Shown here in pieces: positions 3,266-26,865 of a stretch of DNA of 38,892 bases (its first letter is position 1; the number at the start of each line of letters is the position of its first letter). The notes beneath the pieces were generated by a model that saw nothing but the letters and a program-made list of their open reading frames with translations, ran no database searches and was not told the DNA's origin. The position numbers were made by a program, and so were the translations under genes. Source of the stretch: Chamaesiphon sp. 336R_metabinner_41 (GTDB lineage: Bacteria; Cyanobacteriota; Cyanobacteriia; Cyanobacteriales; Chamaesiphonaceae). Location: assembly GCA_025359915.1 (NCBI GenBank), contig JANYDE010000069.1, positions 1 through 38,892 on the forward strand, read 5' to 3'.

Positions 3266-3406
3266 AGCTTTGGGTATGCAAGTCTATCTTTTAAGATTAC
3301 CTCAATCGTTGTAAAACTTTATGAGAATAGGGGCTAGTACTCTCTCAGGATTTGAAAGGTCGTGAGTAGTATCTTCTTTATTGTAGCCGTCTACAGCCGA
3401 TAGCGC

Positions 3407-18403: not shown

Positions 18404-20749
<2,346 letters not shown>

Positions 20750-21738: not shown

Positions 21739-24174
21739 ATGGTTAGAGAACTTAGCCGAGTTCATCAGGAATCTGGCTCCAGCGAGGAGATTTCGCCCCA
21801 GACACAACAGTTCGACTCCGCTCACTACAAGCAATTAGACTTTCCCGCCAGCGCACCGACGGCAAATCCGGTATTTTTTAGAACATATAGCCGCTTCACC
21901 GCTACCGGACGCGAAACATGGCAAGATGTCTGTACTCGTACCCTTGCAGGCTTGGTCAAGTTAGGTAAGTTAACTGACGAGGAGGCTGATGTAATTGATC
22001 GAATGCAGCGTCAGGTAAAGGCGATGCCTTCAGGGCGTTGGTTATGGGTGGGCGGTAGCGAATGGCTGGAGCAACCGCAGAATTTTTCGGGCGCATACAA
22101 TTGCACCAGTACTAATGTCTGTGATTGGGCGGCTTTTGCGCTGATGATGGATTTGGCGATGATGGGTTGTGGTACGGGGGGAATTCTCGAACCCAATTTA
22201 ATCGGCAATTTACCCGCGATTAAAAATCAACTAACTGTTACAACTATTAGCGAAATTGGTAAGGTGCCGATCGCTAATCGGCAAGAATTAAGCACTGTTG
22301 AAATCGCTGGTAATAATGCAACTATTCGAGTCGGTGATAGTCGTCAAGGCTGGGTTAATTCCTATAAGGTTTTATTAGAATTATCTACTGATGATCGCTT
22401 TGATGGTGAAGTGCAAGTATCGATCGATCTCAGCAATGTCCGTCCGGCTGGCGAACCACTCAAAGGCTTTGGTGGTGTCGCAAATCCGGTTAGACTTTTA
22501 GAACTATATGGACGTTGTGCAGGGATATTAAATAAGGCAATTGGGAGACAATTAAACTCGGTTGAATGTTGTCTGTTAATTGATGAAGCGGCAGTAACTA
22601 TCGTCGCAGGAAATATTCGCAGATGCTTGCCTGCTGGTGCTTTGGTGCATTCAGCGGCAGGATTAGTACCAATTGAAAAGATTCGGATTGGCGATCGAGT
22701 TTTAACTAGTAAAGGATTTTATCCTGTTACTAATTTCTTCGATCAAGGCGAACAATCACTGTGTCGGATTAAGACTCAAGATAGTTATTTTGAATGTACC
22801 GCCGATCATAAAGTTGCTGTCCTTACGGATATCTATGGTAACTATGAGATGGTGAAAACCAAATATCTCAAACCAAACGATCGATTGGTGTTCGTTCCTC
22901 AATCTATTCCTGGTACCGCAACCGAATTACCAGAATTTAAAGGTAAATTAGCTCCCCATTCCAAGCGGATTACTATCCCAGCACTTACCCCTGAAGTTGC
23001 TTACTTCTTTGGGTATTTACATGGAGATGGTTCTGTTGCTAGTGACGGCTGGCGCGTCAGATTCCGAGTTGCCAAACATCAACAGCAAATCCTCGAAAAA
23101 TTAATTAGTGTCGGTGAGCTATTTGGTCTAGATACTCATACACTGAGAACGCCAGAACAATGTCAAGCAAAAGCTTTTGAACTCCAGTTCAATTCCAACG
23201 CCCTCAATCAATACCTGTCTCAATTCAAGCAACCTTTCACCAGCATTTCAGTTCCCGATTGTATTTTATTGGGTACCAAAGATATTCGCGAAGCTTATCT
23301 TGCAGGTTTAGCTGATGCTGATGGTTGTTACAGTCAAGCTGTATTAGTTGCATCTGTTCATTCAGATTTCTTACGCCAAATTCAGACGATGTATGCCTCT
23401 TTAGGTATCACAACCCGTCTATGTTCATCCATTCGGAAACGGAATGGTAAATGGGAAGGTGAATTAGTCACAGTTGGCGCACGAGCATTTGATGATACCG
23501 CATCAATATTTAACCAACATTCAGTTATATTTGCCGACAATCATAAAGAACGTCCTAAATCTTTCAAAGACCACGGATTTCCAAAAGAAATGGTCAAACC
23601 GTTGGTAAATACTTATCAATATGGTTGGAGCAATCATCAAGAACAGATGATCGTACCTACGCTGAAGGAATTTATTCCTGAAGCAACCGATCTAATTCCA
23701 GTTAAAGTTGAATCAGTTGAAATGGATGTGAGAATATCACATACTTATGATATTGAAGTAGCTAGCATTCATGAATTCGTCTGTGAAGGAATTCTGGTTT
23801 CAAATAGTGCCGGAATGCGCCAATTTAATTCAGATGATACATTGGGTGCAACTGCCAAAGATAATCTATGGCAGCAAGACGAAAATGGTAACTGGAGAAT
23901 CGACCCAGAACGCGATGCTTTACGGATGAGTAATCATACTCGTGTTTTCCATAAAAAGCCTACCTTAGAAGAGTGTGTTGCCGCTGTACAGAAGCAATAC
24001 TATTCAGGTGAAGGCGCGATTCAATGGGCTGGTGAAGCTGTCGCTCGATCGAATGCCGATCTTTTAGATACACCAGCAAAGAAACAGCAATTCATCGATC
24101 TTTATGGTCAGTCTCAAGAATTAGCAAAAGGATATTTACGTGAGTTATTAATTGCACATAAAAATCATGAATAG
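21739..24174 (+). CDS. nrdJ: Adenosylcobalamin-dependent ribonucleotide reductase, N-terminal part, with intein 1
   Basis: 811 residues as translated: extein 1-295, intein 296-689, extein 690-811. Class II reductases make deoxyribonucleotides using a cobalamin-generated thiyl radical. Recognisable extein blocks are FFRTYSRFT, SGRWLWVGG, GAYNCTSTN (redox Cys), MMDLAMMGCGTGGI, AAVTIVAGNIRR joined to SAGMRQF, and the ALRMSNHTRVFHKKPTLEE region. The frame ends at TAG (24172-24174) after LLIAHKNHE, well before the active-site NPCGE block, which resumes at 24385. It could make the first chain of a two-part enzyme, as in the NrdJa/NrdJb pair known in Pseudomonas aeruginosa, or be disrupted by an insertion. 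The start ATG is the first in frame. Confidence 0.9.
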   Translation: MVRELSRVHQESGSSEEISPQTQQFDSAHYKQLDFPASAPTANPVFFRTYSRFTATGRETWQDVCTRTLAGLVKLGKLTDEEADVIDRMQRQVKAMPSGRWLWVGGSEWLEQPQNFSGAYNCTSTNVCDWAAFALMMDLAMMGCGTGGILEPNLIGNLPAIKNQLTVTTISEIGKVPIANRQELSTVEIAGNNATIRVGDSRQGWVNSYKVLLELSTDDRFDGEVQVSIDLSNVRPAGEPLKGFGGVANPVRLLELYGRCAGILNKAIGRQLNSVECCLLIDEAAVTIVAGNIRRCLPAGALVHSAAGLVPIEKIRIGDRVLTSKGFYPVTNFFDQGEQSLCRIKTQDSYFECTADHKVAVLTDIYGNYEMVKTKYLKPNDRLVFVPQSIPGTATELPEFKGKLAPHSKRITIPALTPEVAYFFGYLHGDGSVASDGWRVRFRVAKHQQQILEKLISVGELFGLDTHTLRTPEQCQAKAFELQFNSNALNQYLSQFKQPFTSISVPDCILLGTKDIREAYLAGLADADGCYSQAVLVASVHSDFLRQIQTMYASLGITTRLCSSIRKRNGKWEGELVTVGARAFDDTASIFNQHSVIFADNHKERPKSFKDHGFPKEMVKPLVNTYQYGWSNHQEQMIVPTLKEFIPEATDLIPVKVESVEMDVRISHTYDIEVASIHEFVCEGILVSNSAGMRQFNSDDTLGATAKDNLWQQDENGNWRIDPERDALRMSNHTRVFHKKPTLEECVAAVQKQYYSGEGAIQWAGEAVARSNADLLDTPAKKQQFIDLYGQSQELAKGYLRELLIAHKNHE
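22624..23805 (+). mobile_element. Intein 1 in nrdJ (LAGLIDADG homing-endonuclease type, 394 aa)
   Basis: Begins with Cys1 (CLPAGALVHSAAGLVPIEKI), has splicing block B FECTADHKVAV, two LAGLIDADG motifs (VAYFFGYLHGDGS and AYLAGLADADG), block F TYDIEVASIHEFV and ends GILVSN before a Ser +1 extein residue. The penultimate residue is Ser rather than the usual His. The boundaries are exact because removing it restores NIRR-SAGMRQF, a normal reductase sequence. Looks splicing- and homing-competent apart from the changed penultimate residue. Confidence 0.93.
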
Positions 24175-24403
24175 AGAATAAGTGTAAAATAAAATACATA
24201 ATTTATTAGCAATCATGGCTATAGTACATAAGTTCTTATTCAAAATGAGTGAATGTAGCTAGCTGTGGTGCTTTAATTTGTGTTAGCATACTTGACTAGT
24301 GGTCTATTCCGGTTAGTCGAGTATTAATATACATTTGACTAGCTGTTTCTGTAGACTGGTCAACTGTTTGTTATGGCATAATCGATGACATTTACTATAA
24401 GTA
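24172..24403. other. Interruption dividing nrdJ into two frames: possible 232-bp insertion
   Basis: Between LLIAHKNHE and ETKNITTQDIELELEHRM lies noncoding DNA bounded by the 5-bp direct repeat ATGAA (24167-24171 and 24404-24408). Joining the flanks at this repeat restores one reading frame. Inside are nested inverted repeats: CTTGACTAGTGGTCT with AGACTGGTCAACTG, and GTTAGTCGAGTA with TACATTTGACTAGC (24288-24370). I could not make it fit a group I or II intron (no usable exon-T/terminal-G or GTGYG...AY ends; the best group I option creates a stop). It may be a small mobile element or a real gene boundary with its own expression signals. Confidence 0.5.
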
Positions 24404-26865
24404 ATGAAACGAAAAATATTACTACCCAAGACATCGAACTCGAACTAGAGCATCGAATGTCTAGGTTTGGACTAAATCCGTGTGGTAGATAACTTTGCCT
24501 CACGTTAAAAACTCCGCAAAATCGGTGAAAGCTGAGAAATGGTTATTAATATTTAGTTATTAATCAACCTGCTAATACCGAGGTAACTAGAGAAACTAAC
24601 AAGTCTCTAACACCGTAGAGCGTAGAGGGTGAAACTGGTATACACCAGAATATAAACCTCCAAGAGTGCGGAGCACTTACTGTGTAAATTAAGTGAAAAT
24701 GTACGCCGAACTACAGAAAATTCAGAATCTGTAGAGCTAGAGGATAAAAAGCCTTTAGGATAACAAACTTGGAAATTCTCGGCACTAATTTTCACTGTGT
24801 TAGTGGTGATACATTACTAATTACTCGCGATAGCTTATCGAAGATCGAAGATGTAATTGGTCAAGAAATTGAAATTTGGAATGGTAAAAACTGGAGCAAA
24901 GTAATTCCCTTTCAAACCAATACCAATCAAAAACTGTACCGCGTTCAATTTAGCGACGGTACATATCTAGATGCGACTGAATATCACCGTTTCTTTGTCA
25001 AGGATCGCTTCGGCAAAGAATACAAAGAAGTCTTGACGAAAGACTTGATGGATACTAGCCGTTATCATATTCATACCGAACCATTTCAAATTCAGTATGA
25101 AGGTGGATCGGATATTGATTCAAGTTATGCTTATACTTTGGGTGTGGCTGTTGGCGATGGTACAGTTGACCAAAAGAATCGTGCCTCCTTGGGTTCGTTC
25201 CATGGTCGGGAAACCCGACCGGACGAACTCCGCAAGATTCGGCTATGTGAAGGTAAATCTAATCTCGTTGTTGCTGGTCATAAATCGCCAGAACGTAACT
25301 ATGATTATTTACCTGCGTTTACTGACGTTACAGAGTTAGATTTCTCGGCAGAATTCCTCAAAGCACTGAAGACTAGTCCTGAAGCTTTAGATATTATTGC
25401 TGGCTGGAATCGTCAAGCAATTCTCCACTTTATTGCGGGGCTAGCTGATACCGATGGTTCTAATACTCAGAGTAATGGCATTCGGATTTATATGTCCGAT
25501 CGATCTCGCGCATACCGTTGTCAATTACTATTGGCTAAATGCGGGATTCGTTGTTCTCTAAATCTGATGTCCCGTAAAGGTGCGGTAACTAATTATGGAG
25601 TCAGAAGTCAAGATCTCTACTATCTCCAAATTACTAACTGTGCTGAAATTCCTTGTCAGCGGTTAGATGTTAGCAAAAGTACCGAGCCAGTAAGTAAGGG
25701 GAAATGGCAAGTAATTCGCGGTGTCGAAGAACTCCCTGGATTGCATGATACTTTCTGTTTTAACGAGCCAGAATTCCATAAAGGCGTATTTGGAGCTACC
25801 TTAGCTGGTAACTGCAACCTTGCAGAAATTCATTTGAATCAACTAGATCCAAATAACCATCAAGAACAGAAAGATGCTTTTACTGCTAGTGCATTAGCAG
25901 TCGCCGCATTACTCAATCACAAATTCCAAGAACCACGTTATCAGTATAGTCGAGAATTAGACCCAATCGTTGGCGTTTCCTTCACAGGTTTGTTTGATTT
26001 CTTCGTTCATGCTTTTGGCTCCGAATGGTTGCAATGGTGGGCTGAAGGTCGCCCTGCAACTGCTGCGGGAATTGCTTATAAGCAACAAGAACATGAATAT
26101 CTCAACACCTGGCGCGAAGTTGTCGAAGCCACTGTGTGGGATTACTGTGACAAACATGGAATTAAACGTCCTAATCGTTGCACCACCGTTCAGCCATCTG
26201 GTACCAAATCTCTGCTGACTGGTGCCTCTCCGGGCTGGCACGCCCCCAAAGCACAACGTTTTATCCGCCGGATCACTTTCCGCAAGGATGACCCTGTAGC
26301 CCTCGCCTGCATCGACTACGGGTACAGCGTGATTCCGTCGCAGTCTGATAAGGATGAAAATGGCAATCTCTTGAATGATGCTTACGATCCGCGTTGTACG
26401 GAATGGTTAATTGAGATTCCGGTAGCTGTTTCCTGGGCTGACTTACCAGGTGCGGATTCGATCGAAATCGCTCAATTTAGCGCACTGTCGCAGATGGATT
26501 TCTACATGGGAGTTCAGCAGCATTATGTCCGCCATAATACCAGTGCGACGATCGAACTGCGCGAGCATGAGGTAGATGAGCTGGGTAAGCGGATTTTTGA
26601 AGCGATTCGGGATGATGAGGGTTATATCTCTGCGGCTCTATTAGCGCGGTTTGACGATCATCAAACGTTCCCTCGTTTGCCGTTTGAACCGATCGACAAG
26701 GCTACTTTTGATGAGATGATGATTGGCGTGATCCAACGCCGCCAAACAGATGAATTCCACACTGCTTTAAGTCGTTATGACATGGGCAGTGCTACAGAAG
26801 AAATTGGTCCGGCTGGTTGTGATTCTGATAAATGTCTATTACCTGAAGCAAAACCTACTAATTAA
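24385..26865 (+). CDS. nrdJ: Ribonucleotide reductase C-terminal part, interrupted by a group I intron and intein 2
   Basis: Exon 1 is 24385-24486 (from ATG: MTFTISNETKNITTQDIELE..., ending SRFGLNPCG); exon 2 is 24772-26865. Splicing gives NPCG-EILGTNFH, i.e. the class II catalytic motif with the radical Cys and Glu. Removing intein 2 (24796-25812) gives NFH-CNLAEIHLNQLDP. The rest shows YQYSRELDPIVGVSFTGLFDFF, TVQPSGTKSLLTGASPGWH (substrate phosphate binding), and the C-terminal redox pair CDSDKC. Extein total is about 392 residues, which with the N-terminal part makes about 809, close to normal NrdJ length. A conventional annotation would start at the TTG 24769 and miss exon 1. Translation start at 24385 is inferred; there is no clear ribosome site. 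The stop codon overlaps the end of a MITE-like element. Confidence 0.82.
24487..24771 (+). ncRNA. Group I self-splicing intron (IA-like) inside the nrdJ catalytic motif
   Basis: 285 nt, no ORF. The 5' exon ends in T and the intron ends in G (24771), as required. Hand-folded helices in canonical order: P1 exon CGTGTGGT with GCCTCACG (24497-24504), giving the U-G splice-site wobble and one mismatch; P3 CTCCGC (24512-24517) with GCGGAG (24668-24673); P4 TCGGT/ACCGA (24522, 24577); P5 AGC/GCT capped by a GGTTATTAAT stem; P6 GGT/ACC with P6a TAGAGA/TCTCTA; P7 GCGTA/TACGC (24620, 24702); P7.1 GAGG/CCTC and P7.2 CTGGT/ACCAG; P8 CACTTA/TAAGTG; P9 CTACAG/CTGTAG; P9.1 CTAGAGG/CCTTTAG. The P7.1/P7.2 pair suggests subgroup IA. 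Excision restores NPCGEILG in frame. Confidence 0.9.
24796..25812 (+). mobile_element. Intein 2 in nrdJ (LAGLIDADG type, 339 aa)
   Basis: Starts with Cys1 in CVSGDTLLITRDSLSKIEDV, block B is YLDATEYHRFFV, and the endonuclease motifs are YTLGVAVGDGTV and HFIAGLADTDGSN. It ends GATLAGN before a Cys +1 extein residue; the penultimate residue is Gly, not His. Excision joins GTNFH to CNLAEIHLNQLDP. It sits only 24 bp after the group I intron. Between residues about 130 and 153 it carries a stretch (FHGRETRPDELRKIRLCEG) encoded by a copy of dispersed repeat B. Confidence 0.93.
25191..25245 (+). repeat. Dispersed repeat B copy inserted in frame within intein 2
   Basis: GGTCGGGAAACCCGACC palindrome followed by GGACGAACTCCGCAAG. 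It matches the reverse complement of the intergenic unit at 20873-20935 (GGAACCCGACTGGAGGAACT then CCGCAAG). It is translated without a frameshift and lies just after the first endonuclease motif. Confidence 0.55.

Follow-up and report, generated by a model that had tools for sequence, protein, structure and literature searches.

The nrdJ gene in a 38,892-nt stretch of Chamaesiphon DNA (referred to here as the window) is divided by two inteins, a group I intron, and a stop codon followed by a noncoding spacer, raising the question of how one ribonucleotide reductase could be obtained from such a locus. The answer that we consider probable from comparison of the sequences is gene fission: NrdJ would be made as two polypeptides, with the cut upstream of its radical Cys, that reassemble into one enzyme, and the split and the adjoining intron would have been passed between species as a recombination tract. 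The layout, its conservation, the selection acting on it, the intron fold, and the exchange of alleles were read from the sequence.

Reductase identity and layout of the locus

The window is part of a 4.23-Mb Chamaesiphon draft genome of 169 contigs, whose closest named relatives are Chamaesiphon sp. 341R_metabat_111, GL140_3_metabinner_129, CAN_BIN30, and C. polymorphus CCALA 037. Two nrdJ open reading frames were listed by the program (21739-24174 and 24769-26865). The TTG at 24769 is a mechanical ORF start only, and the real start of the second gene was put at ATG 24385. Both ORFs match TIGR02505 (adenosylcobalamin-dependent ribonucleoside-triphosphate reductase, RTPR/NrdJ; monomeric-type class II), with a joint score of 673.5 bits with in-frame neighbors and 372.7 bits for ORF2 alone, the curated cutoff of 340.05 bits being the criterion for family membership. 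NrdJ is not encoded as one continuous polypeptide, since two ORFs with a stop and a spacer are kept in three species. The features, all on the forward strand, are as follows.

21739..22623, +: NrdJ-N extein part 1, 295 codons, TIGR02505 positions 17-280
22102-22104: Cys codon in NrdJ-N, probably that of the first active-site Cys as judged by alignment
22624..23805, +: intein 1, 394 aa, LAGLIDADG, at NIRR/SAGM
23806..24171, +: NrdJ-N extein part 2, 122 codons, terminating in GYLRELLIAHKNHE, homologous to intact relatives through query residue 407
24172..24384, +: spacer between the genes, 213 nt, opened by stop TAG 24172-24174
near 24195-24283, 24288-24324, and about 24324-24373: spacer hairpins
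24385..24486, +: NrdJ-C exon 1, putative new start ATG, MTFTISNETKNITTQDIELELEHRMSRFGLNPCG
24481-24483, +: radical Cys codon, in NrdJ-C exon 1
24487..24771, +: group I intron, 285 nt, IA-like with P7.1, without ORF
24512-24518/24667-24673 and 24522-24526/24577-24581: intron P3 and P4
24620-24624/24702-24706, 24674-24678/24691-24695, and 24711-24717/24728-24734: intron P7, P8, and P9
24772..24795, +: NrdJ-C exon 2 extein EILGTNFH, placed by alignment to intact relatives and to NPCGE of 1L1L
24772-24774, +: catalytic Glu codon, in NrdJ-C exon 2
24796..25812, +: intein 2, 339 aa, LAGLIDADG, at NFH/C, immediately 5' of the second active-site Cys
25813..26865, +: NrdJ-C main extein, 350 codons plus stop, with the C-terminal Cys pair GCDSDKC, TIGR02505 positions 387-724

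The spliced extein contains NPCGE, NFHC, and GCDSDKC, corresponding to the radical Cys-Gly-Glu motif, the partner Cys, and the C-terminal Cys pair, respectively. NPCGE of the window aligns to NPCGE of 1L1L, the Lactobacillus leichmannii RTPR, the residue correspondence being based on this alignment and on general knowledge of the enzyme. A Pfam scan of ten window proteins revealed no obvious mobile element. The neighboring gene (18422-20749) encodes a monomeric isocitrate dehydrogenase.

The group I intron and the two inteins

The intron separates Gly from the catalytic Glu in NPCG/E. Its boundaries (24487/24771) were set by P1 (GUGUGGU pairing with GCCUCAC, with a U.G pair at the splice site) and by the terminal G, and they recur in dozens of relatives. 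The Rfam group I model gave no match to the intron at the gathering threshold or at E ≤ 10. We took this result as a limit of the model, and covariation in 19 introns was used in its place. The introns that other cyanobacteria have at this codon share P1, P3, P4, P5, P6, P7, P7.1, P8, and P9; 96.8% of the cells form standard pairs in this fold, and 32 of the 54 pairs changed on both sides. None of 500 shuffles was as good, and slid controls dropped to 30 to 48%. The group I features, namely, a P3-to-P9 core with covariation, a U preceding the 5' splice site, and a 3'-terminal G, are thus all present.

Group I introns were found at this codon in 38 of the 81 nrdJ loci. Some copies carry endonuclease ORFs of the HNH, PD-(D/E)XK-like, or GIY-YIG type (L082, L093, L129), the PD-(D/E)XK-like label being our own reading of a sequence with a weak NUMOD3 match. 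These ORFs, of three nuclease types at one site, make the related introns look mobile. In L046, L048, and L075, exactly this codon holds a group I intron that is visibly different and has classical core sequences, pointing to reuse of the site or to intron replacement.

Intein 1, whose insertion site is common to many relatives, extends from C to VSN followed by S and matches the Pfam LAGLIDADG_3, Hom_end, and Intein_splicing models. Intein 2 extends from C to AGN followed by C and matches TIGR01445 and LAGLIDADG_3. Each contains two LAGLIDADG-type motifs. Both therefore combine a nucleophile at the start, an Asn at the end followed by Ser or Cys, and splicing and LAGLIDADG motifs. In comparison to that of Chamaesiphon genome G005, intein 2 of the window has a 16-residue in-frame insertion (25185-25235) with a short palindrome, GGTCGGGAAACCCGACC (25204-25220).

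These assignments agree with an earlier note on this DNA, which had described a class II NrdJ with intact active-site Cys and Glu and C-terminal cysteines, two inteins, and an IA-like group I intron: the TIGR02505 match and the kept residues, the splicing and LAGLIDADG models, and P1, the terminal G, and covariation, respectively, bear it out, and all parts lie where it placed them, the limits of both inteins and of the intron being exact. Its view that combining inteins with a group I intron is unusual was not supported by the survey. Intein 303 and the intron occur together in 7 of the 81 loci, the intron and intein 445 in 5, and three inteins in 4. No other nrdJ gene among the 81 is as interrupted as that of the window, which does not make its mix different in kind; combinations of inteins and group I introns at these positions are ordinary among cyanobacteria. 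A group I intron has also been published for the ribonucleotide reductase gene of Nostoc punctiforme PCC 73102 (Meng 2007, as cited in PMC12702839 and PMC3984707), so that the group II introns of Trichodesmium, chosen for comparison in the earlier note, are not the nearest case. The Nostoc and window introns are alike in being group I introns of a cyanobacterial ribonucleotide reductase gene; the title of Meng 2007 indicates that the Nostoc intron carries an insertion sequence, whereas the window intron has no ORF. Further insertions of ~2.5 kb, with stops in the frames checked, were seen near nrdJ query residues 114-152 in L084, L113, and L134.

The conserved break upstream of the radical cysteine

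The same break was found in three Chamaesiphon genomes, those of the window, G005 (L034/L071), and C. polymorphus CCALA 037 (G003, L035/L073), and in no other locus examined. The contigs of G004 and G008 terminate close to this region. In all three split genomes, ORF1 has GYLRELL(I/V)AxK near its end and stops at the same aligned codon. The second ORF starts with MTFTISNET, identical in the three species, with ELELEHRMSRFGLNPCG further on. Its ATG lies 0 to 1 codon after an in-frame stop in each case, indicating that the second ORF cannot extend upstream. A degenerate motif coding for MTFTISNET was present in exactly 3 of 11 family genomes, namely, those of the three split species, and the ATG motif was found in no viral contig. 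An assembly error was ruled out as the origin of the break, since the stop at 24172-24174 and the noncoding sequence 24172-24384 are common to the two other species. What the earlier note had called a frame break is consequently a real two-ORF layout with a stop and a gap (of about 230 bp in its estimate), shared by three species, and is better described as a conserved gene fission with its own ATG and a structured spacer.

The cut maps to query residues 407-421, upstream of radical Cys 436 and about 25 residues before it. Intact relatives are continuous through this loop (YAEGKADEWFANNHPNLDKIEVEHRL), and the NrdJ proteins of L139, L140, and L148 lack it, or most of it, between AGEA and RYGLNPC. 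The absence of most of the loop in L140 and L148 indicates that the site tolerates change. In an AlphaFold model of the intact G006 protein, which is weak (mean pLDDT of 57) and from which only local secondary structure was taken, the loop falls between helices 408-415 and 421-427. In the same loop, the nrdJ gene of G022 (L051, about 3330-3345) has a one-base frame change, through either an error of sequencing or, possibly, a break of independent origin. The nrdJ gene of Chamaesiphon GL140_3 (G002; L070, 6843-6845) has an in-frame TGA (CATTGAATT) versus a Gly codon in relatives, which could be an assembly error of the metagenome-assembled genome.

The spacer is AU-rich and noncoding in the three species and has diverged in sequence and in length (213 nt in the window, 142 nt in C. 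polymorphus, and 179 nt in G005). These lengths put the ORFs in different relative frames, all with stops, so that plain readthrough cannot join the halves; a single frameshift was ruled out on the same grounds. In all three species the spacer folds better than shuffled sequences, with z scores of -3.8 (window), -7.2 (142 nt), and -6.0 (179 nt). The stems differ, with two to three hairpins in the window genome and G005 and one 25-bp inverted repeat (G-U allowed) in C. polymorphus. A GTAAAATA motif near the 5' end is common to the split species. The spacer was ruled out as a repeated insertion element, since it is single copy in the genome, and a promoter scan of the spacer returned nothing above chance. 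Structure beyond chance might hint at an RNA role other than that of a spacer; the sequence may protect mRNA, pace translation, or be a scar.

One such role would be that of a second intron, removed from the RNA to give one continuous NrdJ. This proposal would suit a spacer that is structured in three species, shares a motif close to its 5' end, and sits in a gene rich in splicing elements. We nonetheless consider it improbable, because the spacer has no Rfam match, conservation resumes exactly at the ATG following the stop, and after removal MTFTISNETK, an addition of about 10 residues present in no intact relative, would still be encoded. Furthermore, known self-splicing introns are longer than the 142 nt of C. 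polymorphus. The halves might otherwise be joined by ribosomes bypassing or shifting across the structured spacer, as for gene 60 of phage T4, and the ATG at 24385 in the window indeed has no clear Shine-Dalgarno sequence before it. However, the gaps of 142 to 213 nt exceed the 50-nt gap bypassed in gene 60, the frames vary by species, and no conserved pair of take-off and landing codons was seen, making this the least credible of the alternatives.

With stops and four interruptions in one gene, nrdJ could also be a decaying pseudogene in a cell relying on another reductase. The evidence makes this very improbable. Between the split species, dN/dS was 0.03 to 0.08 for the ORF1 extein and 0.03 to 0.04 for ORF2, revealing strong purifying selection on both halves, the active-site residues are kept, and the layout is identical in three species. 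A comparison of the window with G005 shows almost no synonymous change over the initial 17 NrdJ-C codons, indicating that part of the conservation may be at the RNA level or reflect recent exchange. The window genome contains a single RTPR locus. The earlier note had called for a search for another reductase (nrdAB), and this search, performed with PF02867, PF00268, and PF13597 in the window genome, G003, G005, and G006, gave no match, with positive search controls, and hence no class I or III gene, with the proviso that a gene could be missed in a 169-contig draft. NrdJ function has thus probably been retained.

According to the fission reading, the locus would be transcribed into one or two messages, and the group I intron would be removed from the NrdJ-C RNA by splicing. 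We infer that NrdJ-N is translated from 21739 and NrdJ-C separately from ATG 24385, that inteins 1 and 2 are excised by protein splicing, and that the two products associate, unjoined, to rebuild one catalytic barrel. NrdJ-C would supply the radical Cys, the catalytic Glu, the partner Cys, and the C-terminal Cys pair. The cut would lie in a variable loop between two helices; NrdJ-C would have gained the short leader MTFTISNETK, and a hairpin-rich untranslated spacer would separate the genes. The split and adjoining intron would then have travelled between Chamaesiphon species, most likely by co-conversion alongside a homing intein or intron.

Exchange between species and known split enzymes

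Phylogenetic analyses were performed for the tract, which begins at intein 1 and extends slightly beyond the intron, and for the flanks outside it. The flank tree paired the window with G002 (100/100) and C. polymorphus with G006 (95/95), both partners being intact, and rejected a clade of split alleles (p = 0.0002). In the tract tree with the loop columns included, the split alleles grouped together (100/100) and the flank pairings were rejected. Since the loop columns overstate the split clade, the tree was rerun without them. The pairings of the window with G002 (p = 0.0014) and of C. polymorphus with G006 (p = 0.047) were again rejected, in a tree that was poorly resolved and contained no positive split clade (p = 0.39 to 0.44 for holding the split alleles together). 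Third-position identities in the N-flank, tract, and C-flank were 82, 68, and 85% for the window and G002, 80, 60, and 77% for C. polymorphus and G006, and 64, 78, and 64% for the window and G005. Triplet site counts, loop columns included, were 218:59 versus 20:71 (Fisher p = 3e-22). The significant conflict between the flank and tract trees, with split alleles beside intact sister species, indicates that the tract is exchanged between Chamaesiphon species.

Homing co-conversion was probably the driver, a natural one for a tract with LAGLIDADG intein sites at its bounds and the intron inside; ordinary recombination may have acted instead. In a variant of the fission reading, the split would be ancestral in the genus, with G002, G006, and G007 regaining intact alleles through recombination. 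The same conflict between flanks and tract would be expected, and its direction is compatible with gain or restoration. This variant is unlikely, though clearly less so than the alternatives to fission, since other members of the family and order as a rule carry intact alleles and since homing elements bias conversion toward the element-bearing allele. With acquisition of the split by exchange retained as the preferred reading, a broader proposal can be put forward tentatively, its chances being close to even: a free-living bacterium may make its only reductase from two polypeptides cut in the core, one needing protein splicing and the other both RNA and protein splicing, and the fission may have spread as a passenger of homing co-conversion, a broken essential gene being inherited horizontally. 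If so, an essential radical enzyme of a cell, rather than a phage, would be split inside its catalytic core, and a route would be visible by which homing elements may make one gene two and carry that state across species. C. polymorphus CCALA 037 and a close intact relative would provide a natural before-and-after pair for the tolerance of fission and the role of the intron and inteins.

The closest cellular parallel is NrdJa/NrdJb of Pseudomonas aeruginosa, a split B12-dependent class II reductase of which both parts are needed in vivo and which, as a proteobacterial split, was called the only one in a nonviral organism (PMC4520616). Both systems encode such a reductase by two neighboring genes. 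The catalytic machinery is whole in NrdJa and only the C-terminal cysteine part is separate, whereas the Chamaesiphon cut is not near the C terminus but precedes the radical Cys (residues 407-421 versus 436), in an enzyme of the RTPR subfamily with a structured spacer, an intron, and inteins. In phage Aeh1, NrdA-a/NrdA-b are genes in pieces, split by the homing endonuclease gene mobE, that form an active enzyme (reviewed in PMC2988022). As in Chamaesiphon, where assembly would have to follow, a reductase is split in a functionally critical region in connection with homing elements. Aeh1 differs in being a phage with a class I enzyme whose gap still holds the endonuclease gene; the gap of the free-living cyanobacterium is noncoding in all three species. 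Together, the Aeh1 and Pseudomonas enzymes indicate that assembly of split halves is possible. Thermus phage phiYS40 also has a split nrdJ, nrdJ-a/nrdJ-b, with a short gap of 12 nt (PMC3653736). The spacer recalls the IC-UTS between genes 43A and 43B of T4-like phages (PMC2988022), where an essential enzyme is likewise split by untranslated intercistronic sequence and not by a gene, in a different enzyme and host, the likeness being one of layout. The mention in a 2018 paper of "split ribonucleotide reductase enzymes" in lichen Nostoc (PMC5987646), which may simply reflect intron-interrupted genes, lowers our certainty on priority. The parts described by the earlier note are real, and the mixture of inteins and intron in which it saw novelty is mostly known; the part of interest, which it missed, is a conserved fission that cuts the catalytic core of the only reductase detected, shared with C. 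polymorphus on a tract moved between species.
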